In this document: positions 11,326 to 64,000 of the stretch, in pieces
Layout: each line of letters starts with the position of its first letter
Position numbering within the stretch: the stretch's first letter is position 1
DNA from: Melioribacteraceae bacterium
GTDB lineage: Bacteria > Bacteroidota > Ignavibacteria > Ignavibacteriales > Melioribacteraceae
DNA: 64,000 bases
NCBI GenBank assembly: GCA_015493615.1
Contig: WGCV01000035.1
Span: 1-64,000 of the forward strand
Reading direction: 5' to 3'
The notes under the pieces: model-generated
The model's input: the letters and a program-made list of their open reading frames with translations, nothing else
The model's database searches: none
Told to the model about the DNA's origin: nothing
Program-made: the position numbers and the translations under genes

Positions 11326-11391
11326 TGTCTTTCTGAGTTAAATTATATAAAATTAAAACAGATTTTGTGAATTAATTCGGGAAAACAAAAA

Positions 11392-12168: not shown

Positions 12169-12490
12169 ACTCAAAATTGTCAATAGGCTGAAAATTTCTA
12201 ATGACCGCCTTTAGGGAATAGATGAGCTAAATTATAAAAAACAATAAGTTGACTGACGTAAAAATGTGAAGTTTAGACAAAAAACAGATAGGAAAATCTT
12301 AAAAATCAAACTTGTTCTACTTGTAGCACAGATTGATTAGTGAGCTTGTGAACGGTCAATCTGTGGCAATTAATAATTTAGCGTTATTTTTTTTCGCAGA
12401 CTGCAAGCAATCTACGCTACAAAAGAATTTTTGTTATTCGAGTTTTTAGAGCAAAAAAATTTTTCTAATGACAATTTAGGATCAAAACAA
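12169..12490. other. Intergenic gap with one long inverted repeat
   Basis: No gene is seen. CACAGATTGA (12327-12336) is inverted as TCAATCTGTG (12355-12364) around an 18-base loop. It could be a weak transcription end for the plus-strand amidase gene or a repeat remnant; no T run follows directly. Confidence 0.45.
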
Positions 12491-12517
12491 AATAGCCCTT
12501 TTCAACAAAGGGCTATT
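12491..12517 (-). terminator. Terminator of the liv/CBS gene cluster
   Basis: AATAGCCCTTT (12491-12501) pairs with AAAGGGCTATT (12507-12517). On the minus strand the stem is followed by TTGTTTTGAT, a few bases after the CBS-ACT gene's stop. On the plus strand CTCATTTTT follows, so it may act in both directions. Confidence 0.85.
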
Positions 12518-12542
12518 CTCATTTTTATCAGATTATTTAATC

Positions 12543-13196
12543 TTAAAGTTCTTCAATCATCTGTACATTTTCAAACTTATCTTCCAACTGAGCAATAATT
12601 TTATCTATATTTTCTTTATCGGTCTGGAAGCGGATAATTACCGAACGTCGATTTTCCCGCACTTCGTAATAAGTGTTTAAGATACTGATACACTTATGTT
12701 TGTAGTTATCGAGAATATCGCAGACTTCCTTGATTGCTCCCCCTTCGTCAGGCAAGCACATCGATACGCGGTAACTCGGAACTCTTGCGCCGGTAATTCT
12801 AATCAAAGCGTTAAAAACGTCGTGTTCGGTAAGCATTCCGACCAAATCGCCCTTTCCGTCAACAACAGGCAATCCGCCGATTTTCTCATCGAACATGAGC
12901 ACAGCCGCTTTTTCAATCGTTGAATCATCTCTGATTGTAAAAGGATTTTTCTTGTAAATATCTTTAATTTTTATTTTGGAAAGAAGATAATGGACCTCCC
13001 AAACGTCAAGAGAAGTAACTTTTGAAGGAGACGCTTCTTTCAAATCCCTGTCGGAAATTATCCCTACGAGTTTGCCATCTTTCATTACCGGCAAACGTCT
13101 GATTCTGTTCCTTTTGAGAGTTTCGACCGCCTCGGTAAGAGTATCGTTAATATCAATTGTAATCGGATTTTTACTCATCCATTTTCTGACTAACAT
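12543..13196 (-). CDS. CBS-pair plus ACT-domain protein (AcuB-like)
   Basis: A 217-residue cytoplasmic regulator. Two CBS domains span about 1-60 (MSKNPITI..GIISDRDL) and 75-135 (FTIRDDSTIEKA..GMLTEHDV), followed by an ACT-like domain at 140-217 (VSMCLPDEGGAIKEVCDILD). This order matches AcuB-type proteins; CBS pairs bind adenine nucleotides and ACT domains often sense amino acids. It is the last gene of the liv cluster, 14 bases after livF with an AGGAG site, so a role in sensing energy or amino acid status around branched-chain amino acid uptake is plausible but unproven. Confidence 0.88.
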   Translation of the reverse strand: MLVRKWMSKNPITIDINDTLTEAVETLKRNRIRRLPVMKDGKLVGIISDRDLKEASPSKVTSLDVWEVHYLLSKIKIKDIYKKNPFTIRDDSTIEKAAVLMFDEKIGGLPVVDGKGDLVGMLTEHDVFNALIRITGARVPSYRVSMCLPDEGGAIKEVCDILDNYKHKCISILNTYYEVRENRRSVIIRFQTDKENIDKIIAQLEDKFENVQMIEEL

Positions 13197-24182: not shown

Positions 24183-24266
24183 TACCCGGAGGGGGACTCG
24201 AACCCCCAAGGGAATACTCCCACTAGACCCTGAACCTAGCGCGGTTACCAATTTCGCCATCCGGGC
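24183..24266 (-). tRNA. tRNA-Leu (CAG)
   Basis: A class II tRNA of 84 bases: acceptor GCCCGGA/TCCGGGT, GGTAACCGCG D-arm, anticodon loop GTTCAGG giving CAG, a long variable arm (GGGAGTATTCCC) and GGTTCGAGTCC T-arm. No CCA is encoded. Confidence 0.95.
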
Positions 24267-24370
24267 AAAAAGAACATATTTTTGAACTACAAATTTAGAA
24301 AAATATTCAGATAAAGAAAGAACAATATTTTGAATTTCAGCAACTCAATTGAAAATTCACACAGACAAAG

Positions 24371-25216
24371 TCAAATCCCCTCCCCTTTTTCCTTTTTACC
24401 TTCTACTTTTTCCTTGACAATCAAATCCTCTCTTCCCCACTCAATTAATTTTCCCTTAATAAAATCAAGAACGTATTTATGAGTATCGGCAGAATTTGAA
24501 ACTTTCATAGGTTCGCCGAAGGAATAGCGCGTCGGCTTGCTCATATCCATTTTTCCCAAATCTTTAATTACCTTACCGTTTTGCCAAGCGTCTGTTAACA
24601 CGGCGATTGGAACAACCGGAACGTTATTTTTCTGAGCCAATTTAACGCCGAGAGAATTAAATTCCTTCTCGATAAAATATTTAGTTCTTGTCTTCTGCGG
24701 GAAAATGATTATGGATTTCCCCTCGCTGAGTTTCTTTTTCCCTTCCTTCAGAACAATCTGCAAATCTTCCCTCGGATTTTCTCGCCCGACAATAATCGGC
24801 TCGCGCGCAACGGTAACCGCTCCGAACAGAGGAAAGTTAACCAAATCTTTTTTCATAACGTAAAGGACGCGCTTAACGGGATGAATAACGCAAGCCAATA
24901 CCAAAGTTTCGTGAGAACTCATGTGGTTGCCGACAAAGACTACAGGTCCCTCAACTTTTTTCAGATTATCCATTCCCTCGATGCAAATCTTTCCTCCTGC
25001 TTTTTCCCAAGCTCTGAAAATCTCATCCGAAGCCGCTATCCATTGGAAATCATGCAAAGTTCCCTTAATAGCCTGATCATTGGCGACAGCAAAAATACTA
25101 ACTAATTTTGTGTAAAAATAAATTGAAGGAAAAGATGTATAAATGGCTTTATTGTCGGGAGTGCAATATTTATCGTTAATTGCGTATTTATTAGGTAAGT
25201 AGTCTGTACTTTTCAT
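24371..25216 (-). CDS. PlsC-like lysophospholipid acyltransferase
   Basis: A 281-residue glycerolipid acyltransferase-fold protein, expected to acylate lysophosphatidic acid or another lysolipid at the inner membrane. The motif-I site reads NHMSSHE, so the usual H(X4)D pair is H(X4)E, and motif III is FPQKTRT rather than FPEGTRS. Catalytic His, the VAREP region and the VPVVPIAV C-terminal motif are present. Only a weak N-terminal hydrophobic stretch is seen. I placed the start at the ATG at 25216; the longer frame would begin with a TTG inside tRNA-Glu. The altered motifs suggest a divergent subfamily, so the substrate is uncertain. Confidence 0.85.
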   Translation of the reverse strand: MKSTDYLPNKYAINDKYCTPDNKAIYTSFPSIYFYTKLVSIFAVANDQAIKGTLHDFQWIAASDEIFRAWEKAGGKICIEGMDNLKKVEGPVVFVGNHMSSHETLVLACVIHPVKRVLYVMKKDLVNFPLFGAVTVAREPIIVGRENPREDLQIVLKEGKKKLSEGKSIIIFPQKTRTKYFIEKEFNSLGVKLAQKNNVPVVPIAVLTDAWQNGKVIKDLGKMDMSKPTRYSFGEPMKVSNSADTHKYVLDFIKGKLIEWGREDLIVKEKVEGKKEKGEGI

Positions 25217-25234
25217 ACGGCTCACAAAATGTTG

Positions 25235-25308
25235 TGACCCCAACGGGACTCGAACCCGTACTCTCCACCTTGAAAGGGTGATGTGTTAACCAGTTACACC
25301 ATAGGGCC
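25235..25308 (-). tRNA. tRNA-Glu (TTC), copy 1
   Basis: 74 bases; acceptor GGCCCTA/TGGGGTC, anticodon loop CTTTCAA giving TTC, GGTTCGAGTCC T-arm, discriminator A. It appears identical to the copy at 25343-25416. Confidence 0.95.
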
Positions 25309-25342
25309 AAAAATAGATCTTAACAAAACTTCAAAAACATGG

Positions 25343-25416
25343 TGACCCCAACGGGACTCGAACCCGTACTCTCCACCTTGAAAGGGTGATGTGTTAACCA
25401 GTTACACCATAGGGCC
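25343..25416 (-). tRNA. tRNA-Glu (TTC), copy 2
   Basis: 74 bases, same sequence as the copy 108 bases away; the pair looks like a tandem gene duplication. CCA is not encoded. Confidence 0.95.
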
Positions 25417-25423
25417 TTGCTTG

Positions 25424-25497
25424 GGTGGATGATGGGATTTGAACCCATGACCTTCTGGGCCACAACCAGATACTCTAACCAACTGAGCTACATCCAC
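25424..25497 (-). tRNA. tRNA-His (GTG)
   Basis: Acceptor GTGGATG/CATCCAC, anticodon loop TTGTGGC giving GTG, discriminator C. The base before the acceptor is G (25498), so the G-1 identity base is encoded. Confidence 0.95.
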
Positions 25498-25511
25498 CAT
25501 TTAAAAAAAAG

Positions 25512-25585
25512 TACGCCCGAGTGGACTCGAACCACTAACCTACGGCTTAGAAGGCCGTTGCTCTATCCGGTTGAGCTACGGGCGC
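25512..25585 (-). tRNA. tRNA-Arg (TCT)
   Basis: 74 bases; acceptor GCGCCCG/CGGGCGT, anticodon stem ACGGC/GCCGT around loop CTTCTAA giving TCT, GGTTCGAGTCC T-arm. Confidence 0.95.
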
Positions 25586-25637
25586 ATTTTTTATTGCAAA
25601 TTTATAAAACCAACACAAAATGAACAAGAACTTTTTG

Positions 25638-25712
25638 TCGGGGCGGCAGGATTCGAACCTGCGACCTCCTGCTCCCAAAGCAGGCGCGCTAACCGGACTA
25701 CGCTACGCCCCG
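25638..25712 (-). tRNA. tRNA-Pro (TGG)
   Basis: 75 bases; acceptor CGGGGCG/CGCCCCG, anticodon stem CCTGC/GCAGG around loop TTTGGGA giving TGG, GGTTCGAATCC T-arm, discriminator A. Confidence 0.95.
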
Positions 25713-50768: not shown

Positions 50769-53700
50769 TTAAAGCACGCGCCTTAAGCTTTCGATCATCT
50801 TTTCCCGCATAATCGGCTTGGAAATAAAATCATCAAATCCGGCGCGAATGTAATTATCATGGTCGCCCGGCATAACGTAAGCTGTTGCGGCAATTATCGG
50901 CACATCTCTGTAAGCGGGAATATTTCTTATTTCGTGCAATGCGTCAAGTCCGTTATATTCACCCTGCAGATTAATATCCATCACGATAAAATCAAATTTT
51001 TTCCGTTTAAGAAGCGGAAGCGCATCCTCAAATTTTGCGGCTACTTCAATATCTTTAAGTTCTTTCATTTGCTGTTTGAACAAAATCTGCGAATCGATTT
51101 GATCTTCAAGCAGTAAACAGGAAAGCTCGCTTAAAATAATTTTTTTATCGACTGAAGTTTTATTCCCAGACTCGGGGACTTTATTTACAATGTTTTCCGT
51201 AATCTTTGTTTTCTGTTTTTCCGTAACCTCGGGTGCGGGAGCAAATTCAGGACGCTCGATTTCCACGGCTTTCTCAACTATCGGAACTTCTTTTTTAACA
51301 TCCTCCTTTTTCTCGACGACAGGCGACTTACCCAAATCGATAGCGACAGGAAGCTGAGCGGCAAAACCGACAATTTCGTTTCCCTTTCTTACTTCCGTAA
51401 AAGTTACCTGAAGCAAATGCGCCAGTTTTCTGAAAAGACGAACGGCAAAGCGGGATATTCCGTAGTTCCGACGGATAATATTTTCATCCTCGGTTAAAAA
51501 CTCGTTCATAGCTACAATTAAGCCCTGCGAAATTGTCTTCCGGTCGTCCCTGATAATGATTAGAACTTTTCCGTTTTCCTGTTTTGCGCTGATGTAAACC
51601 TGCCCTTCTTTGGTACCTCTTACGGCAAACTCCCACAACATCGAGATAATTGAAATCACTCTCTCTTTATCGTTTATCAAAGTTATTGAAGATGAGATTT
51701 TTCCGTACTTCAAATTTACGCCGTAAGATTCTGCAACTTTTTTAACTCTTTCTTCGACTTCGTCCAAAATATCAACAATGCTAAACGTTACGGGAGAAAT
51801 TTCAACATTGTTTTCTTCAAGAGCAACATATTCCGAAGCCGCATCCATAAGATTTTTCAGCGCTTTCTGATTTTCCTTAATAATCTCAGCCGATTCCAAC
51901 TGTTCGGGAGTGGGATTTTCAATGCTCTCGGCTAATTCCTGAGAAAACCCGATTATCACGTTTATCGGAGTAAGCAGCTCGTGAAAAAGATGACCGAGAA
52001 AAGCGGCGTCAATTCCCGAAACTCCTTCGGAGGAAGTAACCGGAGCCGCAACTCCCGAGCGAAACGATTGCTCAGCCGCTTCGGGCGCAACTTCAGGTTT
52101 AATAAAAATCGAATATGAAATAACCTCGTTGAAAAAATCCGAAATCGGCAGAAAATGCGCCTGCGCCGAAAATATTTTGCCGTTCTTGTTTTTGAAAGAA
52201 ACATCTAAAGTTGTTTCCTCGTTTTTCTTATTGATAAAAATTGTCTTATTGATTTTCCCTCTGTCCTGATCTGTAATCAGTGTAACAAAGGAATCTCCCG
52301 AAACTTCTTTTTCCGAAAAAGAAAACAATTCGGTAAATGCCGGATTTACTTTTAAGATAAATCCTTCCGCGTCTGTTTCAACAAAAGCTTCGGCGGCTAA
52401 CTTTGAGAAAACCCGAAACTCTTTAAGTTCTTTTTCAAGTTCGAGCGACTTGGAAGAATCGTCAAGGTAAGTTAACACCGCATCTTTCCCGTCATAATTA
52501 ATCTTAACCTTACTCATCCGGACGATTAGCACCGTTCCATCTTTTCTTTTATTTTTGACGGGCTTGCCCCATCCTGTTTCATTTTCATCTTCGCTTGATT
52601 CAAGCAAGGTTTGAATATTTTCCGGAGAATAAAGGTCGGTTAAATCCAAAGAGAGAAAACTTTTGCGGTCGTAACCGTAAAGGGACAAAGCGGCGTCGTT
52701 GACCGCCAAAAACATTAAATTTTCAGAATCATAAATAAAAATAGGCTGCGGGCTTGTATTCAATATAATATCGTAAATTTTTTCTTCCATAATTCTTCCA
52801 ATATTTTCTTCGTTCATTCTTACCAGCGTAATAAAACCGCCGGACAAAACATTCTTTCTATTAAAAATTTTTTTAATATATAAATTTAAGTTTTTATAAC
52901 TTGAATCAGCATAAAAATCTCCGAGTTCAAATTCGGTTTCATCATTTTTTTCTTCGGAATAAAGGAACACACTTATTTTTTCTCCCAGCTTTTTCCCGAA
53001 TAAATCGGTTAAGTTTTCTCCCGTTATTTCATTCATCTTCAAACCGAACGCTTCCGCAAAGCCCAAGCTGGATTTTTTAATTTTTCCCGAATAATCAAAA
53101 ATGGCAAACGGAAGATTTAACTTCTCGATTGTCGAATAAATCAGATATTCTTCTCTGTCCGAAATACTCAAAACCCTATCCGGCTGAACAAGCCCGATAG
53201 TCGCTACTACATTTTCATTTGAATCGAAAACCGGAATTTTAATTATATCGTATCCTGAAAGAAGTTCCGAATCGGTTAAGGTTAAATCGTCACGCACAAG
53301 AATTTCTTTGTAACGAACGGCTTGCTCGGTTAATAAAGTCATTACTTCGGCAATCGAGGATAAAAAAGCTTCCTTTTCCGAAAAACCTTCAGCCGCGCCG
53401 ACAGCAAGAAACTCTTTCATGTTTTCATTTGCAAATGTAATTTTCCCCGAGGAATCGGTAATCCAGAATGAAATTTGCTTACCGTGAAGCGCCTTTTTCA
53501 ATCTATTTTTTTCGATTATGGAAAGAGGATATTCATTTTCAATTGTGTAAAGGACGTCAAGGATTTCTTCGTTGGTTACGATTTTCCGGAGGTTATCCGA
53601 AACGATTCTGTATTTGACAGCGGATAAATATTCCGGCTCGTCAACTTCAAACTGTATCAGAAAGTAATTTTCATTTCCCGAGACTAACGGAATCAGTTTA

Positions 53701-53974
53701 CATCCGGCTTCAATCGTTTCGCCCGTATTCGTAACAATCTGAAAAACTCCCGCTTCAGGTTCTCGCTTTGATAAAACAGAATTCCAAAGAACGGTTATTT
53801 TCGGGCTTTTTTTTTTAATAGCGAAATCAAGTTATCTCCGGTTTTTAACGATTCCCGCAAAAAACGGGATAACCGGATATTGAAAAATTGAAGATTTCCC
53901 CCTTCGTTAAGCAAAGCGGTCGGAAACGAGAACTCGTTTACATATTCTTTCAATATTTCTTTTTTAGCAATCAC
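50769..53974 (-). CDS. PAS / histidine-kinase-like / receiver protein, split by a frameshift at A10
   Basis: The natural start is GTG at 53974, overlapping the FN3 gene's stop (GTGA) with the strong coupling typical of this operon. The first 52 codons end at a TAA at 53797 unless the reading frame shifts by -1 (or one extra A is read) in the A10 run at 53807-53816. After that the frame is open to 50769, giving about 1068 residues. Domains: an N-terminal PAS-like region, at least three PAS domains (e.g. FWITDSSGKITFANENM, FIYDSENLMFLAVNDAALSLYGYDR, VETDAEGFILKVNPAFTELFSF), a HisKA-like helix pair (HLFHELLTPINVIIGF), a degenerate HATPase without N, G1 or G2 boxes, and a C-terminal receiver with Asp in VMDINLQ. 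The protein is probably a scaffold or pseudokinase for the exopolysaccharide locus. Confidence 0.8.
53807..53816 (-). other. A10 homopolymer, frameshift or slippage site
   Basis: Minus-strand reading TTA-AAA-AAA-AAA-GCC in the upstream frame; both frames are open here. A -1 slip on A-AAA-AAA, or an RNA with 11 A residues, joins the GTG-initiated N-terminus to the long downstream frame. A sequencing or assembly error in the homopolymer would look the same. Confidence 0.7.
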
Positions 53975-55791
53975 TTTTTACTCGGCACCGTAACTGTTAT
54001 TACATCTGTCCATTCCGAAGCCGAGACGCTGTTGACCGCCCGCATTCTATAATTGTAAGCGGAACCGCGGAAAACATCGTTATCGACAAACTGAGTTGTG
54101 TTGGGCGGAGCAACGCCGACATTTTCGAATGTTCCGCCTCCCGCGAATCTTCTCTGAATTTGGAAATAATCTTCATTGCCCGAATTATCCGACCAGTTTA
54201 GTATTACTCGCGGCGTGTTATCGGCAACTCCGTTAAAGTTTGTCGGAGCCACAAGCGGAGTAACGACTTCGTTACTGAATTCGGAATAAAGATTATTCCG
54301 GAATGAGCGGACTTTGAAAAAATAGGATGAATCCCTGCTAAGTCCGACCACAGTGTAAGTTTCCGTATTTGCCGGTAAAGTTTTCAGCAAGAAATAATCG
54401 CCGCCTTCGCCGTTTTTCTTCCAAACTTCAAATCCGTCTTCATCCCACGAGTCGTCGGTCCAGCTGAGAAGGAAAGCCGTTCCCGGATTAATAGTGGAAA
54501 TCGTTAGCGCTTTCGGAGGCTTGGGAGGAAGAATAGGTACGTAAGCCGTATCGACATTGGAATATGTTGTATATGAACCGTCTCCGGTTTTATATCTAAC
54601 TCTGTAAGCGTATGTTCTTCCCGCTGAATAGGAAGAATCCCAATAAGTTGTTACGTCAGGATCGGTATCGCCTATTTTAGCAAATGGTTCTTCTGAACCG
54701 TAAATTTTTCTTTCTACTTCGCTGCCGTATTCCAAAGTGGAATTATCGCTCCAATGCAGATAAACTTTCCTTTCGCTCATATCAAATGTAGCCACAAGAT
54801 TAGAAGGAGGCGTAATATCTCTCGATCCGGTTGTTACTGTCGTTTCATTAGAATAAGCAAAAGAGGAAGGCAAAATTGCCGCAACGCGATATTGATAAGT
54901 CGTGTTCTTTTCCAATCCTTCGTCAAGATATTCAATCGTATTCGGCGGAAGAACCGTTACCTGTGCATAATCGGTACCTGCGGAGAGATTTTTTCTTTCT
55001 ACAAGATAACCGTTTTCGCGTGTAGAATTATCATTCCAAGTAAGATGAACAACGCTTGCTCCCAAAGCTTCACCACGAAGATTTGTGGGAGCATCTCTTC
55101 CGGTAGGTCCGTTAGTGTTAACTTCATTGCTAAAATGTGATGTTCCTGAATTATTTACTGCGCGAACTTTATAATAATACGTTACAAATTCATTTAATCC
55201 GAAATCAGAATAGCTTGTTTGATCTTTTGCAAGGGTTCTGTAAGGTGCAGAGCCGTAACTTGTGTTATTTCCTACACTTCTCCACAGTTCGTAATTATTT
55301 TCATTAGTAGCATTATCTTTCCACAAAAGAAGCACCGAATTATTTCCGAATGTAGATAAAGTTAAGTTTGTAGGTGTGTTAGGAGCGTTTGAAACAAAAA
55401 TGTTCTTTTGAATATCACTCTGTTTGTATGCTCCGCTTTTACTGTATGCGATAATATAGAACTGAATCATGCTTCCGGCGGCTTCGGGAGCAATATCAAA
55501 ATAGAGTGTATCGTCAGGTAAAAAAACGTGCTCCGTTGAAACGGTATTAATAAAAATCTCAAGATGATCCAATCCCGGACCTCCGAGCGCGTCATCAGCC
55601 GTATAATCAACATAATTTCTGCCGATATAAACCGTATCGCCGGTGGCAGGATAATAAACTTTTACGGAAGGTTTATCGGCGGATGTCGGCGGATTCGAAC
55701 TCGCCTCAACGCATCCTTCCAAATAAAAAAGACTAAGCACAAATGTGGTTAGTAAAAATGACGTAATTATAATATTTTTTATTCTTTTCAT
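53971..55791 (-). CDS. Fibronectin type III repeat lipoprotein
   Basis: A 606-residue envelope lipoprotein: signal peptide with lipobox ending at Cys27 (FYLEGC), a short beta domain with a GDTVYIGRNYVDY segment (~40-130), then five FN3 domains (~135-600; recurring NLTLSTFGNNSVLLLWKDN, NLRGEALGASVVHLTWNDN, YRVRA types). Each repeat carries the LxWxDNSxNExxYxVER core. FN3 arrays in secreted bacterial proteins act as spacers or in carbohydrate and cell contacts. Its ATG overlaps the upstream stop (ATGA), and its own stop overlaps the next GTG, so it is an integral member of the exopolysaccharide operon. Confidence 0.88.
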   Translation of the reverse strand: MKRIKNIIITSFLLTTFVLSLFYLEGCVEASSNPPTSADKPSVKVYYPATGDTVYIGRNYVDYTADDALGGPGLDHLEIFINTVSTEHVFLPDDTLYFDIAPEAAGSMIQFYIIAYSKSGAYKQSDIQKNIFVSNAPNTPTNLTLSTFGNNSVLLLWKDNATNENNYELWRSVGNNTSYGSAPYRTLAKDQTSYSDFGLNEFVTYYYKVRAVNNSGTSHFSNEVNTNGPTGRDAPTNLRGEALGASVVHLTWNDNSTRENGYLVERKNLSAGTDYAQVTVLPPNTIEYLDEGLEKNTTYQYRVAAILPSSFAYSNETTVTTGSRDITPPSNLVATFDMSERKVYLHWSDNSTLEYGSEVERKIYGSEEPFAKIGDTDPDVTTYWDSSYSAGRTYAYRVRYKTGDGSYTTYSNVDTAYVPILPPKPPKALTISTINPGTAFLLSWTDDSWDEDGFEVWKKNGEGGDYFLLKTLPANTETYTVVGLSRDSSYFFKVRSFRNNLYSEFSNEVVTPLVAPTNFNGVADNTPRVILNWSDNSGNEDYFQIQRRFAGGGTFENVGVAPPNTTQFVDNDVFRGSAYNYRMRAVNSVSASEWTDVITVTVPSKK

Positions 55792-57746
55792 TCTTTATTC
55801 TTAAAATCCAATAAAATTGACCGAGTGTCTCCGGCATCCAATTTATCAAAAGTCAGATAAATACTCTGAGTGGGTTCGTCAAAAGTATATGCAGGGAGTT
55901 TTGTATTTATTATATCCGAAGATACTTTCAAATCCGTAATCGACTTATTTAAATAAATTTTAACCATAAAATCTTCTACAGTTTCTTCCGAAGGATTAGA
56001 GACTTCAATTGCAATCCGGCGTTTTCCTCTGATTGTATAGTTGATTTCCACGCTTCCTCGCTTAAACCACCAATTCTGAAGTTCATCCAAAGTTGTAAAC
56101 CACATATTCTTACTTCTTACATAGTCAACAACCTGCTTGATAACGGGAATATTTGCCGGTTTTAACTGCTCGTCCGTATGGAATTTAAATACATATAATC
56201 CGCCTGTAAAATCCACGCGGTCAACGTCTTCTTCGTAAGTATATTCCTGAAAATGCAAATCTTTAAGTCCGAAATCCCTTATAACCCGATAATCGTCTCT
56301 TGCTGTATTTCCAACGATAAAAATTTTATTTCCATCGAAAATTTCCGTTTTGGGAATAATTCTGTCTGTCAGCGAATCGGTGAAAATTAAGTTAAATCCG
56401 TTTTTTGACATAGCAGAGAGCGTATTTTTATCAAAATAACCGTAAGAAGGCATCAATTTTTTAACGTCGATTCCAAGCAGAGAATCGGCTTCCATTTTAG
56501 CGTTTCGCAATATTTCATTCTGTTCGTCAATACTGTATAGTGAGTTTGTGGTATCCTCAAACGATTCCACATAACCGATATCCAACTCCAATCCGATATT
56601 TAACCCCGCCGCGTATTTTATCAGATATTTTCGGTCTTGCGGTAATTTTTCCGCGCTTGTAAAAATCGTGGAAGCGTCTCCGGTTCCGAAAACTCCGGTA
56701 AAGTTCTTTAAATTTTCAGGTTGTGAAGCGACAATCGGAACCATAACGGCGGCGGATTTGTAAGGCGGAGGCCAATCCACAATTTCCGCCGTAGGCAAAT
56801 GAAGCAGCCAGTCCATTGAGCTTGAAAAAAAACGATCAAAATAGATGTAATCTTCCTGTGTTCCTATTACGGAATTGAGTTCAAAACCGTACCAGACAAA
56901 GCGTCCTTTTCCATATCTTCCGAATGCGCTTCCCGCGCTTTTTTGTATGTTTTCGATGACTAAACCGTGCTCCCGCCTGAAATCGTACCAGTAGCTAGCC
57001 TGAATTGTACGAGGCTCAAGCACTTCGGCATATATCGGTCTGTCCCAAGTTGCGATATCAAGCGTGTAACCGGTCGGGACGCCGGTTGTTATCGGAAGGT
57101 TGCCGCGTACGGTGTGAATTTTTGTAGTTCCCTCTTCAGGATCAATTTCCTTTGTAAACTTTAGCCCGAAAACTTCGTTAAAAAATTTCCAGCCTGCCCA
57201 TTTTCCGTCGGGAGAAAATGTCGCGGGTCCTCCGGTAGAAAATAAGCTTCCGCCATGTTTAATATATAACTTTATCTCTGAAACTTCTTTGTCGCTTAAA
57301 ACCCTCGAACCCGGCATAATTAAAACTTTATACTGCTTTTCAGCTCCGAGTTCAACATCATGATCATAAATAATTTTATAAGGAATTTTATGGCTTTTCA
57401 GAAATTTTTCCCACGTGGAAATATTATCTATCAGCCACGTGCTCCCTTCTTCGAGAAGGTTCTCGGTATATTTTGAATAAAGAATTGCGACTTCGGTTTT
57501 TTTCTCGAGAACCGCCTCTATATTTTTCTTGGAAGGAGTCATCTCGTCAATTTTAACTTCGCCGAAAACTCCTTTGATAATCAAAAGATAAAACATTACG
57601 GCTGAAATAAATAAAGCCGCCCCGCCGATTAAAATCACAAAAATATTTACCCTCATACCGCTTAATGCGGTATTTTCATAATTATCCGCGGAGAGTTTTG
57701 AACTCTTAACTTTTTTCTTTCTTTTTTTAAAGAATTTTAGCGCCAC
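55788..57746 (-). CDS. Membrane-anchored amidotransferase-like plus NodB-like (pseudo)deacetylase
   Basis: A 652-residue protein: basic cytoplasmic N-terminus, one transmembrane helix (~33-57), a class-I-amidotransferase/ThuA-like alpha-beta domain (~85-300; VAILYSKYTENLL, KVLIMPGSRVLSDKEVSEIKLYIKHGG), a NodB-like domain (~325-560) and a C-terminal beta domain. The NodB fold is recognisable from the IDEQNEILRNAKMEADSLLGIDVKKLMPSYGYFDKNTLSAMSKNGFNLIFTDS-type order, here given by its key pieces YSIDEQNEIL, MPSYGYFD and NGFNLIFTDS. The metal-binding TFDDG motif is replaced by VPIVAS and the HSxxH motif by LELDIGYVES, so deacetylase activity is unlikely. In PNAG operons the equivalent position is held by the active deacetylase PgaB. 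Confidence 0.75.
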   Translation of the reverse strand: MALKFFKKRKKKVKSSKLSADNYENTALSGMRVNIFVILIGGAALFISAVMFYLLIIKGVFGEVKIDEMTPSKKNIEAVLEKKTEVAILYSKYTENLLEEGSTWLIDNISTWEKFLKSHKIPYKIIYDHDVELGAEKQYKVLIMPGSRVLSDKEVSEIKLYIKHGGSLFSTGGPATFSPDGKWAGWKFFNEVFGLKFTKEIDPEEGTTKIHTVRGNLPITTGVPTGYTLDIATWDRPIYAEVLEPRTIQASYWYDFRREHGLVIENIQKSAGSAFGRYGKGRFVWYGFELNSVIGTQEDYIYFDRFFSSSMDWLLHLPTAEIVDWPPPYKSAAVMVPIVASQPENLKNFTGVFGTGDASTIFTSAEKLPQDRKYLIKYAAGLNIGLELDIGYVESFEDTTNSLYSIDEQNEILRNAKMEADSLLGIDVKKLMPSYGYFDKNTLSAMSKNGFNLIFTDSLTDRIIPKTEIFDGNKIFIVGNTARDDYRVIRDFGLKDLHFQEYTYEEDVDRVDFTGGLYVFKFHTDEQLKPANIPVIKQVVDYVRSKNMWFTTLDELQNWWFKRGSVEINYTIRGKRRIAIEVSNPSEETVEDFMVKIYLNKSITDLKVSSDIINTKLPAYTFDEPTQSIYLTFDKLDAGDTRSILLDFKNKE

Positions 57747-58228
57747 TTAAGGGGCTCCTCGTTATCTTTAGTATTGGCTTTCTTTTCCACTTCCGTGTAG
57801 CCGGCGCTTGTATATCTGCTGAATCTTCCTCTTGTGGAAGAAAATCTTTCGGCATTTACAGTTGTTTTACCGGGTTGTCTGTACGGTTCGAAAGTTTCTT
57901 CGTCCATAGTAGAGCCAACAATGGTAGGTCGCATTTCCGGTCTTGTCGAAGCGCCACCCGTGCGGAACATAGGAGCAGATTCTCCCAAAGTTGACCTGAA
58001 TTCGGAATCTCCGTAGGTTCGTCTTAAGTCAGTTCCGGTAAGTCTGGTAGTCTGTCCGGCAACTTGCGGAGTAATAAGTTCCGCCGGAATCGCTTCAGGC
58101 TTGGGAGCTTCGGCAGCCTGTCCCTTCTTCTCCCGAATTTTATAAAGCACATAAGCCCCGACAGAGAGAACGAAAGTCGATATTGTCGCGACTAATATGA
58201 TTAAAGATAGTATTGGAATTAATTCCAT
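57737..58228 (-). CDS. Small membrane-anchored protein of the exopolysaccharide locus
   Basis: A 163-residue protein with one N-terminal transmembrane helix (ILSLIILVATISTFVLSVGAYVLY, 6-29) and a hydrophilic, Thr/Arg-rich, probably disordered cytoplasmic or periplasmic tail. It is not recognised by family. It lies 19 bases after the glycosyltransferase gene and overlaps the next gene by 10 bases. By position it could be a synthase-associated subunit analogous to PgaD, which, however, has two helices; there is no sequence evidence for homology. Confidence 0.75.
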   Translation of the reverse strand: MELIPILSLIILVATISTFVLSVGAYVLYKIREKKGQAAEAPKPEAIPAELITPQVAGQTTRLTGTDLRRTYGDSEFRSTLGESAPMFRTGGASTRPEMRPTIVGSTMDEETFEPYRQPGKTTVNAERFSSTRGRFSRYTSAGYTEVEKKANTKDNEEPLKWR

Positions 58229-58247
58229 TTTATACTCCTGTTAATTT

Positions 58248-59636
58248 TCACTTATTAGGGGTTCCGATTCTTTCTAATTTTCCCCAACTCATCTTGAGCC
58301 CGAGAAATTCTTCAATCGTAGCCATTCCTTTTGTAATATCTATCATAAGGACAAAAAATATTCTGTATATCAATGAATAGGGAATCAAACGGGCTTCCTC
58401 TCTTTCCGCAGCAACGCAGAAAAGAGCCGACATAAAGTCGAGAATCGCAATACCGAACCACCAGAATACGATTAAGCTTGTCATTCCATATAATAAAGCA
58501 ACAATTATAAACCACAAGTTTGCAAAAATATTCATCGTAGGCCAAATCAGGGCTTCAAAAACCATCGACCACAGCACCAACGAATTATTGAAATTCTTAG
58601 TCGGATTTATCAAATATCTTTTATGTTTTCTGATTGCCTGTAAAATTCCTCGCGTCCAGCGGTAACGTTGTTTAAGAAGCTGAAATAACTTCGACGGAGC
58701 TTCCGTCCAAGCCTGCGCTTCCGGCTCATATTCGATTTTCCAGCCCTGAGCCAAAATCTTCAGCGTTAAATCAGCATCTTCGGCAAATGTATCGCTTGAA
58801 TAATATCCCGCATCGTGCAACGCTCTCTTTCTGAAAATACCAATAGGTCCGGGAATAATGTTAACCATTTTAAGAAATCCCTGCGCGCTGCGCGCCATAT
58901 TCAAACCTTCCACATATTCGAGCGCCTGTAAATCAAGCAGCGGTTTTTTACGATTTTCAACTTTTACGTTCCCCGCTACCGCTCCAACTTCCGGATCAAC
59001 AAAATGGCGCATTCCCATCTTCAGCGTTTGAGGCGAAAGGGTTGAATCACCATCCATGCAGAGAACAAAATCCGCTTCCGAATATTGGATTCCCGCATTA
59101 AGGGCTTTAGATTTTCCGCCGTTCGGTTTATTGATTAATGAAACTTTCACATATGAATTCTTACCTTTGTGCAAACCGACCATCTCTTCAGCTACTTTAG
59201 CGGTATTATCTTTCGAGCCGTCGTTGACTACAATAATTTCGTAGTTCGGGTAATCTAACTTCAGAAGAGAATTTATCGAATTTTTAACTACTTTTTCCTC
59301 ATTGTAAACCGGCACAATTATCGAGACAAACGGTGTGTAAATCGGTTTATTTTCCACCGTATATTTTGTCATGTAAAAATACGCCATCCAGATTATCGTA
59401 AAATATCGAACAAGCAAAAGAAAAAGGAAAAGGACGAGAGAAACGATCGAAGCGTAAACAAAAAGTCCGCTCCAAGGAAGAACAGTCATCGGCAAAGTAA
59501 TCAGAATAATAATCAGCAGAATAACGCTCAACACTCCCGAGATTATCATAGTGCGGACTTTCTCCTTCTTCACATCTCTTTTCGGAGGTTCAAGTTCGCG
59601 ATTATCTAATATTATTTTTAATTTTTCATTTTTCAT
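58248..59636 (-). CDS. Processive family-2 glycosyltransferase (PgaC/IcaA-like synthase)
   Basis: A 462-residue inner-membrane polysaccharide synthase. Two N-terminal helices (~28-50, 58-88) precede the GT-A domain, and three or four hydrophobic segments follow (~350-450). The catalytic set is complete: Asp139 (VVNDGSKD), DGD at 195-197, the base in AEDADL (Glu286-Asp287), and QRYRW at 323-327 as the Q-x-x-R-W motif. This set marks processive beta-glycan synthases such as PgaC, IcaA, BcsA and hyaluronan synthase. It has no PilZ domain, and the layout is closest to PgaC/IcaA (poly-beta-1,6-N-acetylglucosamine). The product is inferred. A 223-base AT-rich gap upstream may hold a promoter. Confidence 0.9.
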   Translation of the reverse strand: MKNEKLKIILDNRELEPPKRDVKKEKVRTMIISGVLSVILLIIILITLPMTVLPWSGLFVYASIVSLVLFLFLLLVRYFTIIWMAYFYMTKYTVENKPIYTPFVSIIVPVYNEEKVVKNSINSLLKLDYPNYEIIVVNDGSKDNTAKVAEEMVGLHKGKNSYVKVSLINKPNGGKSKALNAGIQYSEADFVLCMDGDSTLSPQTLKMGMRHFVDPEVGAVAGNVKVENRKKPLLDLQALEYVEGLNMARSAQGFLKMVNIIPGPIGIFRKRALHDAGYYSSDTFAEDADLTLKILAQGWKIEYEPEAQAWTEAPSKLFQLLKQRYRWTRGILQAIRKHKRYLINPTKNFNNSLVLWSMVFEALIWPTMNIFANLWFIIVALLYGMTSLIVFWWFGIAILDFMSALFCVAAEREEARLIPYSLIYRIFFVLMIDITKGMATIEEFLGLKMSWGKLERIGTPNK

Positions 59637-59649
59637 ATATTAACTTTTG

Positions 59650-59676
59650 CAAATCTAATGCCAGAGAAAGTTCTCT
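59650..59676 (-). promoter_or_regulatory. Possible promoter and palindromic operator before the synthase gene
   Basis: AGAGAA-AG-TTCTCT (59663-59676) is a 14-base palindrome, and the minus strand then reads TAGATTTG (59650-59657), matching the Bacteroidota -7 pattern TAnnTTTG. No -33 TTTG at the right distance was found, so this is tentative. The remaining 59637-59859 gap is AT-rich with no gene. Confidence 0.3.
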
Positions 59677-59859
59677 TTTTATTGTTAAAAACAAACTTTT
59701 TATTTATAAATATGTTGCAAAATGAGAAATCACTCTTTTTCTATACACTTTTATGAAATATAATAATTTATTTAACTCTTTTCAATAAAATAATTTAACC
59801 GTTTACATTAAAGTAAAACGATAGTTAGAGTGAATAACTTATTGAAATATTTTACTTTT

Positions 59860-62751
59860 TTAAAAAACAGACCACGACAAACTCAGTCCGAAAGCTTTGG
59901 AACGATACCCCATGTTAAACCTCTGAGATTGTCGTAATGCGGCAAATCCTGTAAAAACCATATTTTCATACGGCTTGTACGAAGCTTCTAATCTTGCGTC
60001 CCAAATAATAAAACTCGATTGCGGTATATAACCGACTTTTCCTATAAAATTCATATTCCATTCTTTATCGCTGTAAAAATTCCAATCTCCAAAAATCGAA
60101 TGCGAAGAATATTCCTGAGGAGAATAATAATAATTCGAAGAGAATTCATAATCAATATATTCAAATTCGTAACCGAGTTGAAGACTATCTATAAAATATT
60201 TCCCCGCGCTTAAATCAAGCTGGTTCCCGAGATTATACCCTAAAGCCGCATTCGGCATTATTTCAAGAATGGTATATTCCCCTTTTAATAACAATTTATC
60301 ATGGATTTTGTACTTTCCGCCGATGCGATACATGTGAGCCGTAGATGAAATAAGCGGAACTAAATATGGCGAATAGAGTACAACTGCGGCTTCGCTGCTT
60401 AGGAAATAACCGTAAAGAGAGAAATTTTTGTTTTTCTTGTACCTCGCGTTAATTTCATAAACTTCATGATTGTAAGGGAAATAATTTGGAGAAAACAATT
60501 TTCCCGTTCCCCCTGAAATCATCATATGGTCGGAAAGTTTAAAGTTTAAGTTGAACATTACCCTCTGGAAACCATTTGTAATATTGCCGTCGGAAACCAG
60601 TCCCTTTCTCCAAGACGCGCCAACTGAGACAAAACTCAATAATCCGGTTTCAACGCCAATCCCCCCGTAAAGATATGTAAAATTAAGATTATCGTTAAAA
60701 TAATAAACATAGGGATTAACGTAGAGGTACGAAGCAAGATTCCCTGTAATGTTATACCAAAAATCAGTAAATAAATTCGGTTCTCTCTCTTTGGGAGGCA
60801 ACCAGGAAATTCGGTCCTCAATTTTATATCTGTCCCACAACGAATCGGGAACGGCTCTGTAAAGTGAATCTGCCAGTTTATAATCATGCTCGCGGAAATA
60901 TGAATCTCCAAGATAAACTTTCAGTTCCGGATCGTCAGGTTTTTCCTCCAAAAGTTTTTGGAATTCATTAACCACATTTAGGGAATCACCTGACCAAAAG
61001 AGTATCTTAGCTTTTGTCAGCTGCGTTTCAAAACTCGGGTCAAGTCGTTCCAGTTTATCAAAAGTTTGCAGCGCAGAATCATAATCATTATCCATGAGAT
61101 AAGCATTACCAAGCGAAAGAAGCACATTTTTTCTTTCTCCGACATTTTCAATATACTCTTCATATTTGGGAATTGCTTCCTTATATTTACCTTCCCTCAT
61201 CAAAGAATCCGCTTTGTTAACCTGCGATACATAATATTCTTCTTTCTTTTTCAATTTAAGAAGCTCGTACATCGATTTAATATCCACATAATCGGAATTT
61301 GTCGAATCAATTGCGGCGGCTTTTTTAACCTCAACGCCCATTGAATCGGGATTATCTTCTGAATAATACATTAAGCTTAAAGCAAGATGAGGCTGAATAT
61401 TGGAAGGTTGTTTTTCTTCAACCTCTTCCAAATTCTTTTTTGCTTCGTCCAAATCCCTTAAAGTCCAAACGGCAAGCTGCCCCGCAAGTAACTTATATTT
61501 TAATTTATTCCCGCCTGCATCTAAAACTTCTTTCATAACTTCGTATGCGTTCTGTTTATCCCCTTTGTACTGAAGAATTCTCGCCAATAAATATTTTGCT
61601 TCCAAATTATTCGGGGATATATCGAGGAAATCTCTCAAAATTTCTTCCGCTTCGTCATACTTTCCCAGTGCAATATATTTTTTTACCAGATTAAAAGTTG
61701 CGGAGCTGTCTTTAGGATTTTCCTTTATTTTCGTCAGATAATCATTTATATCTTTGGAGTAATACAACTCCATATGTTTCCCCAATATTTCTTCAAGCTT
61801 TTTATATCTTTCCGTTCCCGAATATTTATTAGATAACTTTGCGAGCTGCTGCTTCGCTTCTTCGAAACGATTCTTATCCAATAATAAACTTACAAGTTTA
61901 AACCTCGCTTCGTCGTTGGAAGGATTTTTCCTCACAATTCTGTAATATTTATCAATCGGATATATCTGCGCTTTTTTTCGCCGCCGATTATCAAATTCGT
62001 CCGGCTGATACTGAGTAACATATCCCTGCCGTATAGCCAAGTCCAACCCATCCTGCGCCTCTTTAAAAAACGGTTTAAAACTAAGCGCCGTTCTAAAAGC
62101 GTGTTCGGCATTTTTATACTTCCCGAGCCACAAGGTAAAGTATCCGTACCGGTCCCACAAACGCCAATCTTTGGGATAACGCTCGACCCATTTTTTTAAG
62201 ATTTTTTCTCCTTTTCGGATGTGCCCGGTTTTTTGCAGAATGATGGAAAATCTAATAATTTCATCGGGGGAAGCGTTATCGTCGCGCTTCAAATATTCAT
62301 CGTACCAATGCTCCGCCAACGACCATTTTTCCATCTCGCGATAAGCTTTGCCTATATTTAAATAGTTAAACGGATCGCTCGGATCAACCGCAATATTTCT
62401 TTTGTATCCTTCAATATTCTTTTCGAGAATCGGATACCATATTTTAATTATCCTCGCCAAGTTATTCCGGTATTCGGCGTTGTTCGGATCAAGCGAAATC
62501 GCCCGCCTGTAATCCAGTCGCGCCCAGTGGTATCTTCCCTGCGCTTCGTAACAAAGTCCGCGTAAGTTATAGCCTTCCGGCGATTGAGGTTTGTACGTAA
62601 TGTATTTGTTCAGCTGGTCAATAGCCTCTTTGTACCGCCCGTGCTTCATATGATTTAAAGCGACTCTCTTCGTGCCCTCCGCAGTTCTTTGCCCGTACAA
62701 AGGCTCCAGAACGAAGAGAGTCAAAATCAATATTAAAAAGAAGCGTTTCAT
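59860..62751 (-). CDS. TPR plus beta-barrel outer-membrane exporter (PgaA/BcsC-like)
   Basis: A 963-residue secreted protein. A signal peptide (FFLILILTLFVLEPLYG, 4-20) leads to an extended tetratricopeptide solenoid (~25-650; MKHGRYKEAIDQLNKYITYKP, YHWARLDYRRAISLDPNNAEYRNN, KYDEAEEILRDFLDISPNNLEAKYLLA types), then a C-terminal region of aromatic amphipathic strands (~680-963) ending in Phe, as for an outer-membrane barrel. The periplasmic-TPR-then-porin order is that of PgaA, BcsC and AlgK/AlgE. Its ATG overlaps the stop of the KaiC-like gene (ATGA). It would carry the glycan made by the downstream synthase across the outer membrane. Confidence 0.85.
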   Translation of the reverse strand: MKRFFLILILTLFVLEPLYGQRTAEGTKRVALNHMKHGRYKEAIDQLNKYITYKPQSPEGYNLRGLCYEAQGRYHWARLDYRRAISLDPNNAEYRNNLARIIKIWYPILEKNIEGYKRNIAVDPSDPFNYLNIGKAYREMEKWSLAEHWYDEYLKRDDNASPDEIIRFSIILQKTGHIRKGEKILKKWVERYPKDWRLWDRYGYFTLWLGKYKNAEHAFRTALSFKPFFKEAQDGLDLAIRQGYVTQYQPDEFDNRRRKKAQIYPIDKYYRIVRKNPSNDEARFKLVSLLLDKNRFEEAKQQLAKLSNKYSGTERYKKLEEILGKHMELYYSKDINDYLTKIKENPKDSSATFNLVKKYIALGKYDEAEEILRDFLDISPNNLEAKYLLARILQYKGDKQNAYEVMKEVLDAGGNKLKYKLLAGQLAVWTLRDLDEAKKNLEEVEEKQPSNIQPHLALSLMYYSEDNPDSMGVEVKKAAAIDSTNSDYVDIKSMYELLKLKKKEEYYVSQVNKADSLMREGKYKEAIPKYEEYIENVGERKNVLLSLGNAYLMDNDYDSALQTFDKLERLDPSFETQLTKAKILFWSGDSLNVVNEFQKLLEEKPDDPELKVYLGDSYFREHDYKLADSLYRAVPDSLWDRYKIEDRISWLPPKEREPNLFTDFWYNITGNLASYLYVNPYVYYFNDNLNFTYLYGGIGVETGLLSFVSVGASWRKGLVSDGNITNGFQRVMFNLNFKLSDHMMISGGTGKLFSPNYFPYNHEVYEINARYKKNKNFSLYGYFLSSEAAVVLYSPYLVPLISSTAHMYRIGGKYKIHDKLLLKGEYTILEIMPNAALGYNLGNQLDLSAGKYFIDSLQLGYEFEYIDYEFSSNYYYSPQEYSSHSIFGDWNFYSDKEWNMNFIGKVGYIPQSSFIIWDARLEASYKPYENMVFTGFAALRQSQRFNMGYRSKAFGLSLSWSVF

Positions 62752-64000
62752 TTCGTTAAAAATTCTCCGAGAGGCAAGTACAAATTTTCCGTTGTAGTTG
62801 TTGAGGTTAAATAATCTATAATTGTCTCGGCTCTGTCAAGTTTATTGTCAACTTCATAATTAAATAATTTAATCAAAGCGTTGACGACATCTTTTTGAAT
62901 ACCGTATAAGTACAATTTATCTCTCATTGTTGAAACAAACTCAAAAACCCGTTCGTCAGTACTGCTGGGTATCAAAACCAAAATTACATCGTCTATGTAG
63001 CAAATCTTTTCTTTCCTTTCCGACGCTTCTATTACGGCGGCTTTAATTTGATCAAAAGAAATATTTTTCACTTCGATTAAGACGCGTGAAACGGAAAAAG
63101 CGATAAGGTTAAATTTCTGACCGGCGCTTTTAAATAAGGCGATTTGATTATTAAGTATCAGAGAGAAATCATTGTATGAATAAACATTCGGAGCGTATAT
63201 ATTAACAACTTTCTTTACCGGCTGATTTTCCTCACGCTTTTCTTCTACAATAATATTGTCCGGAACTTCCGTTTTATCATGCGCAACATCGTATTTACTG
63301 ATTATATCGGGTTCCGGCTCGGCTTCGACAACTCTCGGAGGAGTTTCAGCCAAATCCACGACTACGCCTTTGTAAGGCTCTATTTTGTAAGTTTCGGAAA
63401 ACTGCCCTTCGGTATGCCCGATGTTCGGAGTAATAACAACTGTGCCGCCGTAAAATTTTCCGCTGATTTTTTTAACGCCTTTCTTTAAATATATTACTCC
63501 CGTAACATTGTTTGCGATTATTTCAACAATTTCATTTGTTCTTTTTGTTGCAGGTTCGGAGACGATAAAAATACTTGTAATATCCCGATCCTCAATAGAT
63601 TCAAGTATATGAACAAAAACCGAACGAAGCGTATTTAGGTTTTTAAAACCTATATAATGCGTTAATTCGTCAAAAATTATTCTCTGCGGATTATACTGCG
63701 CCGCGACAGTCAAAATATCATTTAAATATTCAGCTAAATATTCGTCGCTTATTCCATTCGAATAAACTTCTTCGGGCGAGGCGACGCGGACGACAATTAT
63801 TAAGTTCTGATCCATGTAAGCCTGAATATCAAAATTTAAGGATGCGGCTTGTATCATTAAATCTTTAGGACGCATGTTAGTAAAAAAGAGGGATGTTTCT
63901 CCTTCTTCGGCTGAAGCTATTGCAGCCTGAAGCGCAAGCAGAGTTCGCCCTGATTTACGCGCGCCTATTATTAAATAGCTTCCTCCCTCATAGAGTCCGC
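62748..64000 (-). CDS. KaiC-like ATPase with GGDEF-like C-terminus (5' partial)
   Basis: The frame is open to the window edge; the visible N-terminus begins GLYEGGSYLIIGARKSGRT. This is a RecA/KaiC-type core whose Walker A reads GARKSGRT, with Arg in place of the P-loop Lys, while Walker B (RIIFDELTHY) and the FFTNMRPKDLM, AASLNFD segments follow family order. After a linker (~190-235 of the visible part) the last ~150 residues (YNDFSLILNNQIALFKSAG..YIDDVILVLIP..) have the spacing of a GGDEF domain with the signature lost. The RecA-like plus degenerate GGDEF arrangement in a glycan secretion operon recalls BcsE, a c-di-GMP-sensing cellulose regulator. That parallel is inference; no RxxD I-site was found. 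Confidence 0.7.
   Translation of the reverse strand, partial: GLYEGGSYLIIGARKSGRTLLALQAAIASAEEGETSLFFTNMRPKDLMIQAASLNFDIQAYMDQNLIIVVRVASPEEVYSNGISDEYLAEYLNDILTVAAQYNPQRIIFDELTHYIGFKNLNTLRSVFVHILESIEDRDITSIFIVSEPATKRTNEIVEIIANNVTGVIYLKKGVKKISGKFYGGTVVITPNIGHTEGQFSETYKIEPYKGVVVDLAETPPRVVEAEPEPDIISKYDVAHDKTEVPDNIIVEEKREENQPVKKVVNIYAPNVYSYNDFSLILNNQIALFKSAGQKFNLIAFSVSRVLIEVKNISFDQIKAAVIEASERKEKICYIDDVILVLIPSSTDERVFEFVSTMRDKLYLYGIQKDVVNALIKLFNYEVDNKLDRAETIIDYLTSTTTTENLYLPLGEFLTK

Follow-up and report, generated by a model that had tools for sequence, protein, structure and literature searches.

A conserved operon of Ignavibacteriales that probably encodes a composite exopolysaccharide secretion system

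Introduction

At one end of a 64,000-nucleotide stretch from a Melioribacteraceae bacterium (the window, comprising the first 64000 bases of a contig of 83597 bases in a genome of 3.15 Mb) lies a run of minus-strand genes that includes a family 2 glycosyltransferase (GT2) and a tetratricopeptide repeat (TPR) protein with a predicted outer-membrane barrel. The question raised by this locus is whether its genes form one of the known machines for making and exporting a biofilm polysaccharide or a different one. We find that the operon resembles three known biofilm systems, sharing parts with Pga, Bcs and Pel, and matches none of them. It is probably a synthase-dependent system for secreting an exopolysaccharide, and its composite type would be new: it combines a PgaC-like GT2, a TPR-barrel exporter, a PelA-like protein that has lost its carbohydrate esterase family 4 (CE4) metal site, and a KaiC-GGDEF-like regulator. 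No description of the operon was found in the openly accessible literature searched, by title, abstract start or passages, and a 2020 survey of exopolysaccharide operons (PMC7112194) mentions neither Ignavibacter nor Bacteroidetes nor Chlorobi in its main text. The operon is real and conserved, and as a composite of known kinds of part it is apparently undescribed.

Results

An eight-gene operon

The original prediction, made from the window alone, had named seven co-directional genes: a KaiC/GGDEF-like regulator, a TPR-barrel exporter, a QxxRW synthase, a small anchored protein, an amidotransferase/NodB-like protein, a fibronectin type III (FN3) lipoprotein and a PAS/kinase/receiver protein. 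An open reading frame (ORF) check with Pfam and NCBIfam scans recovered all seven on the minus strand at 50769-64000. When the contig was read on, an eighth gene was found past the window end and hence out of sight of that prediction; it lies 141 bp upstream of the KaiC-like gene and encodes a family 9 glycoside hydrolase (GH9) with a CelD_N domain. The operon order is GH9, KaiC-like, TPR-barrel, GT2 synthase, small transmembrane (TM) protein, ThuA/CE4-like, FN3 and histidine kinase (Table 1). From the KaiC-like gene to the kinase the junctions measure -4, 223, 19, -10, -4 and 469 bp, so that four of the six, rather than the five first counted, overlap or are no more than 19 bp long; the longer gaps precede the GT2 gene (223 bp) and the kinase gene (469 bp).

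The operon is conserved in Ignavibacteriales and its genes co-occur across the class

The check proposed at the outset, conserved synteny of the gene families, came out in favour of the prediction: the arrangement is kept in relatives, and the genes also co-occur across the class. Among 58 related genomes, including the window's own, a homologue of the ThuA/CE4-like protein is present in 50, and the window proteins were run against the frames of 35 close loci (34 of the 49 other homologue-bearing genomes, plus the own locus). The GT2, the small TM protein and the ThuA/CE4-like protein were each observed in all 35, the kinase in 34, the FN3 protein in 32, the TPR-barrel protein in 30, the KaiC-like protein in 29 and GH9 in 27, the absences being partly due to contig ends and partly real. 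In 35/35 loci the small TM gene adjoins the GT2 gene on the same strand and shares exactly 10 bp with the ThuA/CE4-like gene; the KaiC-like and TPR-barrel genes overlap or lie no more than 30 bp apart in 29/29. The gene order recurs in both Melioribacteraceae and Ignavibacteriaceae, and the nearest named homologue of the ThuA/CE4-like protein (94% over residues 210-652) is found in a Melioribacteraceae metagenome-assembled genome.

A second sample of 80 named loci, which partly come from the same organisms as the genomes above and are not independent of them, contained 42 with at least 9.5 kb upstream and at least 5.5 kb downstream of the ThuA/CE4-like gene. In 35 of these the full eight-gene order is present, 32 by a strict test and three more in which that test had been disturbed by an additional, weak kinase-like match upstream; the other seven are missing one to three of the eight. 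A weak kinase-like match, probably a receiver domain, was seen just upstream of the GH9 gene at L118, L123 and L137.

Co-occurrence was assessed in 294 genomes of the class, with thresholds of at least 690 bits for the ThuA/CE4-like protein and E <=1e-40 for the KaiC-like protein. Each gave a match in 55 genomes: 54 have both, 238 have neither and two have one only (G178, ThuA/CE4-like; G006, KaiC-like). A GT2 orthologue was found, at a profile E <=1e-60, in none of the eight relatives that have no ThuA/CE4-like match, two of which are less than 90% complete. In G036 and G043 the operon is split between the TPR-barrel and GT2 genes and both halves persist, with GH9, KaiC-like and TPR-barrel genes together on a second contig (the other halves being L055 and L067). 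G006, a member of the same family that has no ThuA/CE4-like or GT2 orthologue, keeps the KaiC-like gene, a shortened, TPR-poor barrel-like protein and the kinase (L235; C30:36500-56400), together with a GT2-like protein that has marginal GT2 matches only, as if the system were decaying. G178, from another order, carries TPR-barrel, GT2, small TM, ThuA/CE4-like and FN3 genes with GH9 downstream, and has no KaiC-like match genome-wide at 1e-40.

Several loci carry additional genes. An SGNH-like gene lies between the TPR-barrel and GT2 genes in 11/30 loci (L043, L045, L048-L051, L054, L061, L063, L065 and L066). All 11 copies have DxxH near the end and a GDS motif, oddly placed in one, and one of the two proteins scanned gave a weak Pfam GDSL match; this optional SGNH-hydrolase-like gene is possibly an O-acetylation enzyme. 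At L061 and L206 further tandem copies, or fragments, of the KaiC-like gene precede the exporter gene upstream, and a second ThuA/CE4-like paralogue stands beside the first at L058, L059, L068 and L070 and at the distant loci L195-L201.

Those distant loci come from a class-wide search around G453 with a mixed ThuA/CE4-like profile (E <1e-200), in which 17/146 genomes matched; all 17 loci were examined. KaiC-like, TPR-barrel, GT2, small TM and ThuA/CE4-like genes occur in that order in nine. In three more (L202, L203 and L224) the order is the same and a protein of about 330 residues with a similar single-TM start replaces the small protein, which was not found there by profile; a further three loci are cut by contig ends. 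At L203:11401-13047, a GHL10-type hydrolase gene lies directly downstream of the ThuA/CE4-like gene.

The synthase scores closest to PgaC and to NodB-GT2 fusion proteins

The GT2 ranks first in conservation among the eight proteins, with a mean pairwise identity of 0.67 against 0.34-0.51 for the rest. Its catalytic motifs, read directly from 24 sequences, are invariant: ND139, DGD195-197, AED285-287 and QRYRW323-327. Hydropathy places two TM segments at the N-terminus and three or four at the C-terminus, and QxxRW together with C-terminal TM segments is typical of processive synthases. The top NCBIfam family was PgaC_IcaA at 213 bits, half of its cut-off of 422, followed by NodC (111) and CelA (76). 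A profile of the GT2 scored E. coli PgaC at 176 bits (E 7.5e-37), NodC at 111, BcsA at 67 (2e-12) and NfrB at 8.6; the NodC reference was taken by profile match from an unannotated pSymA stretch and is presumed to be NodC from its position. The highest scores outside the family (238-275 bits) went to four plasmid-borne NodB-GT2 fusion proteins, and among solved structures the hyaluronan synthases matched best (79 bits), with BcsA at 66. Pfam and NCBIfam scans found no PilZ domain on the GT2, and the Pfam scan found no MshEN domain.

Trees were less informative. Nine GT2 matches from the window's own genome were considered, of which one was omitted beforehand; of the remaining eight, six were excluded as having no QxxRW. 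The close group forms a supported set with L194 (98/100), outside which BcsA is joined by one GT2 of the own genome (96/95). The near and far groups were not recovered as one clade, and we therefore claim only the ranking by score; long branches made the trees unusable for placing the GT2 relative to PgaC, NodC and the fusion synthases. The kinship proposed for the synthase is thus borne out by scores, which favour PgaC and the NodB-GT2 fusions over unrelated GT2 enzymes, and not by tree placement.

The small TM protein beside the synthase consists of a strongly conserved N-terminal TM helix, a low-complexity linker and a C-terminus ending in Trp plus one residue. This Trp is present in 35/35 close members, 31 of which have [KR]W[RK], and the N-terminal sequence MELIPIL...IILVATISTF.L..GAY..YK.R hardly varies within the close group and can still be made out clearly in most distant members. 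The protein has no profile similarity to PgaD, although short proteins of this sort diverge fast; it is presumably a partner of the synthase.

A TPR scaffold with its own predicted barrel

The C-terminal region of the TPR protein, approximately residues 640-963, was taken as a predicted outer-membrane barrel, and the protein is presumed to be the exporter. Its TPR part matched BcsC at E 7e-8, while the whole protein scored 68 bits against PgaA TIGR03939 (cut-off 367) and BCSC_C matched at 13 bits, below cut-off. The "PgaA-like" exporter of the original prediction therefore keeps its TPR-plus-barrel plan and loses its assignment, since the weak matches of the barrel fit neither PgaA nor BcsC securely.

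A PelA-like protein without the deacetylase histidine pair

The ThuA/CE4-like protein has a TM helix at residues 38-56 by hydropathy, followed in a structure model (predicted local distance difference test, pLDDT, 76) by a ThuA/GATase1-like domain (82-318), a CE4/NodB-like domain (approximately 324-566) and a beta-rich region (567-650). Fold searches matched the CE4-like part to 3rxz (Z 25.4) and the ThuA-like part to the middle domain of a GH42 enzyme (Z 17.6). The tandem of ThuA-like and deacetylase-fold domains is that of PelA, each domain being identified by a separate search; the joint match to PelA 9cgy over residues 82-564 has a root-mean-square deviation (rmsd) of 12.6, so the likeness covers the domains singly and not their arrangement. 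As described in passages of PMC12022489, PelA has a hydrolase domain followed by one that its authors link with ThuA-like proteins and with IFT52; a deacetylase and a beta-rich part come after it. IFT52 was also weakly matched (E 0.54) in a sequence search of our protein, and the PelA-like domain order had been missed by the original prediction. The ThuA-like domain of Agd3 founded a carbohydrate-binding family, according to the available part of PMC7229062. NDST1, ranked first by E-value, was rejected as a relative (TM-score 0.30, rmsd 13.6; not among the 50 fold matches listed).

That this deacetylase-like protein lacks ligands had been suggested in the original prediction, and the motif table agrees, with HxxxH observed to be absent from the CE4-like region in 35/35 close homologues; two secondary copies gave empty motif cells. 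Other CE4 residues persist at positions set by our own alignment, with Asp at motif 1 in 33/35 and His at motif 5 in 34/35. Among distant homologues HxxxH was counted in 2/19 rows (18 proteins, L194 and L227 being the same protein). Both counts fall at the region edge, and none is left once five flanking residues inside the region are required. By single-sequence profile comparison, which is too insensitive for this region and equally for the barrel, the KaiC-like domain and the GGDEF-like region, PgaB (0.13) scored no better than PgaD (0.047).

GH9 motifs were likewise read directly: DAGD in 19/20 copies that reach that far (the exception being L056) and NE[PA][TA]I near the end in 26/27, both of which we take to hold the catalytic acids. 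Among solved structures GH9 is closest to endoglucanases and a xyloglucanase. The FN3 protein is presumed to be a surface or matrix protein.

Opposite fates of a nucleotide site and a cyclic di-GMP motif in the KaiC-like protein

The KaiC-like protein consists of an ATPase domain (residues 1-237), a disordered linker and a GGDEF-like C-terminal domain (approximately 290-436; model pLDDT 82). The KaiC half of the predicted KaiC/GGDEF-like regulator is supported by Pfam and by fold (Z 26.8 for residues 3-236). Pfam does not detect the GGDEF-like half in the protein of the window; the case for it comes from the secondary structure that the model predicts and from weak Pfam matches among the 12 distant homologues (GGDEF_2 in 4/12, PelD_GGDEF in one), the best match by single-sequence profile being DgcT (0.058). 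The fold lists for the model cover residues 1-238 only, which makes the absence of BcsE from them uninformative.

A P-loop of the form GxxK(S/T)G(R/K)T and an Asp-Glu Walker B (FDE) occur in 29/29 close homologues. The canonical Walker A lysine is Arg in 24/29 and Lys in 5/29, and a Lys three residues earlier is present in all 29. The 12 distant homologues lack both this earlier Lys and the Walker B Asp-Glu pair, and nine of them carry an RxxD of cyclic di-GMP (c-di-GMP) type at the aligned place, compared with 0/29 in the close, Ignavibacteriales group. To judge from these residues, the nucleotide site has eroded in the distant relatives, where RxxD appears, and the reverse holds in Ignavibacteriales.

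This pattern bears on BcsE. Passages of PMC7439463 state that KaiC served the authors as the model for the N-terminus of BcsE, that its Walker A is severely diverged and that degenerate receiver and GGDEF domains follow, with c-di-GMP bound through RxxD. In our 58 genomes the cut-off of the BcsE family, PF10995, was reached in none, with a positive E. coli control; one divergent homologue, that of G006, matched below it at E 7e-5, two of 26 close homologues matched at E <=1 (best 0.043), and none of the 12 distant homologues did. By the insensitive single-sequence comparison, the KaiC-like domain scored DppF (0.0016) and PhoH (0.0053), unrelated P-loop proteins, ahead of BcsE (0.24). The domain plan of a KaiC/RecA-like domain plus a degenerate GGDEF is thus the part of the "BcsE-like" label that stands, the sequence support being marginal and partly contrary. 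Given that support, it is plausible by analogy that the protein works like BcsE or PelD, and we rejected its identification as a BcsE, no homologue having passed the PF10995 cut-off.

In the hybrid kinase, His507 and the REC Asp842 are kept in 34/34 homologues, and the HATPase N and G1 boxes are eroded.

Comparison with known systems and alternative explanations

No known system shows all of its tested defining features here, which agrees with the original reading, in which the combination was not recognised as a named system. One alternative is a divergent Pga system making poly-N-acetylglucosamine, with a PgaC-like synthase, PgaA-like exporter, PgaB-like deacetylase and small PgaD-like protein. 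PgaC is the top-scoring characterised synthase tested, the exporter has the TPR-plus-barrel plan and a NodB-fold protein is present. However, the missing HxxxH speaks against PgaB-type deacetylation, the NodB-fold protein carries a ThuA-like domain, the small protein shows no PgaD similarity by profile, the synthase reaches half of the PgaC cut-off, and the E. coli pga operon has no GH9, KaiC-like or FN3 genes; we regard this explanation as unlikely. Equally unlikely, in our estimation, is a variant cellulose system in which GH9 replaces BcsZ and the KaiC-like protein serves as BcsE. It would account for the kinship of GH9 with endo-beta-1,4-glucanases (Bcs also has an endoglucanase-family gene, of family 8 in the available passages of PMC5070118), for the resemblance of the TPR scaffold to BcsC, for the BcsE-type domain plan (PMC7439463, in part) and for the one divergent homologue matching BcsE. 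Against it, the synthase has no PilZ domain and is far closer to PgaC than to BcsA, no BcsB match was found among seven proteins scanned, BcsE fails at its family cut-off and trails unrelated P-loop proteins, and the KaiC-like protein retains much of the nucleotide site and leaves no space for a receiver domain like that in BcsE.

Two further explanations would detach the synthase from polysaccharide export. In one, the GT2 supplies a surface protein or lipid with a short glycan and the TPR-barrel protein is an adhesin or receptor; the weak barrel assignment and the FN3 protein are compatible with this, whereas the QxxRW motif and C-terminal TM segments point to a processive enzyme, and a GT2 with TPR and barrel is the plan of Pga, Bcs and Nfr (for Nfr, in passages of PMC8669469), leaving it improbable. 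Least credible of all is a cellulose-degradation cluster of secreted GH9 and FN3 enzymes with an incidental GT2. The available part of the Melioribacter roseus genome paper does predict cellulolysis and list four GH9 genes as possible cellulolytic enzymes (PMC3534657), but the GT2 is the best conserved member and at the 35 loci is never without the small TM and ThuA/CE4-like genes, and distant families retain the core but not GH9 beside it.

The synthase of Pel, PelF, is a GT4, unlike the GT2 here. The ThuA-like, deacetylase-fold and beta-rich order is that of PelA, the beta-rich parts being matched by description only (PMC12022489, passages), and PelD_GGDEF matches one distant KaiC-like homologue; the operon protein differs in having no hydrolase domain and in missing the His pair of the PelA metal triad (Asp, His, His). 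Nfr, which makes the phage N4 receptor glycan, also pairs a GT2 synthase with a TPR-barrel partner (PMC8669469, in part) and is set apart by the MshEN domain that the operon GT2 lacks and by the very low NfrB score. The NodB-GT2 fusions, despite giving the highest non-member scores, are single proteins with a polysaccharide-deacetylase domain (3/3 scanned, one also with GH18), and no gene labelled TPR or porin occurs in the three annotated stretches.

The composite secretion system that we prefer must itself be set against several contrary observations. The barrel region gave only weak matches (BcsC 0.007, PgaA 0.028), so it cannot be assigned to either family by sequence. One genome of another order (L194) carries the set without KaiC, and at the distant loci L200 and L220 the KaiC-like and TPR-barrel genes are not beside the rest, with no contig end there; L220 has no GT2 either. 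GH9, FN3 and kinase genes do not stand beside the core in the distant loci, and we therefore define the core as five genes and those three as specific to the Ignavibacteriales lineage, with GH9 and FN3 shared also by G178 outside that order. Finally, the clues to the polymer conflict, GH9 being nearest to endoglucanases and the GT2 nearest to PgaC and the NodB-GT2 fusions.

Discussion

The gene set with its conservation and co-occurrence, the GT2 and GH9 motifs and the missing CE4 His pair are observed; transport, order of action, control and polymer identity we infer by analogy with the named relatives. In the composite system the GT2 and its single-TM partner would polymerise a nucleotide sugar and extrude the chain across the inner membrane. 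The anchored ThuA/CE4-like protein would bind and guide the chain in the periplasm, with no deacetylation by the known CE4 mechanism, and the TPR scaffold would carry it to its own outer-membrane barrel for export. GH9 may trim the chain and the FN3 protein may retain it at the surface, while the KaiC-GGDEF-like protein and the PAS kinase/receiver protein would switch the machine on. The polymer could be a beta-1,4-glucan, following the GH9 clue, or a polymer of N-acetylglucosamine type, following the GT2 clue. Pfam scans show nothing resembling a nucleotide-sugar enzyme among the eight genes, and the precursor is therefore likely to be a common one.

We also put forward, as a speculation that we regard as unlikely, that the KaiC-GGDEF-like protein represents an ancient type of polysaccharide-synthase regulator, with BcsE as a degenerate cousin. 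In Ignavibacteriales it would act as a nucleotide-gated ring, driving or gating the synthase, c-di-GMP sensing having been given up; in sister lineages the nucleotide site would be lost and c-di-GMP sensed via RxxD. If true, lineages would differ in which of two signals controls this machine. From the contrasting fates of the two motifs, the unexplained KaiC-like domain of BcsE gains a set of relatives in which that domain may still work, which opens the domain to test.

The operon would add a matrix-polymer system to an order without described exopolysaccharide machinery in the literature searched. A mixture of Pga, Bcs and Pel parts in one conserved operon helps to show how such machines are assembled, and a conserved, apparently dead deacetylase beside a synthase raises the question of what such domains do beyond catalysis.

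Coordinates and neighbouring features

Table 1. Genes of the operon, with window coordinates unless marked otherwise.
Feature	Coordinates	Strand or place	Basis
GH9/CelD_N gene	contig 64200-65846, outside window	same operon, upstream end	Pfam, 239 bits
KaiC-like gene	62748..64000 in window; complete at contig 62748-64058	minus	436 residues; Pfam KaiC, 78.6 bits on full gene
TPR scaffold and presumed outer-membrane barrel, presumed exporter	59860..62751	minus	963 residues; signal-like N-terminus; many TPR families
Processive GT2 synthase	58248..59636	minus	462 residues; motifs, NCBIfam, profile, hydropathy
Small TM protein, presumed synthase partner	57737..58228	minus	adjoins GT2; conserved ends
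Membrane-anchored ThuA/CE4-like protein	55788..57746	minus	652 residues; structure model, fold search, motif table
FN3-repeat protein with hydrophobic leader, possible lipoprotein	53971..55791	minus	Pfam fn3, 4 stretches, 87 bits
PAS-PAS-HisKA-REC hybrid kinase, presumed regulator	50769..53501	minus	Pfam PAS, HisKA, Response_reg

Beyond the GH9 gene stands a glutaredoxin-like gene on the opposite strand, named by appearance only. Also past the window end, a gene for an FG-GAP repeat protein with a kinase-type ATPase domain (L009:12738-16307) adjoins one for a sigma-54 response regulator (11381-12787), both on the minus strand. Elsewhere in the window, six tRNA genes identified with Rfam are clustered at 24183-25712 on the minus strand.

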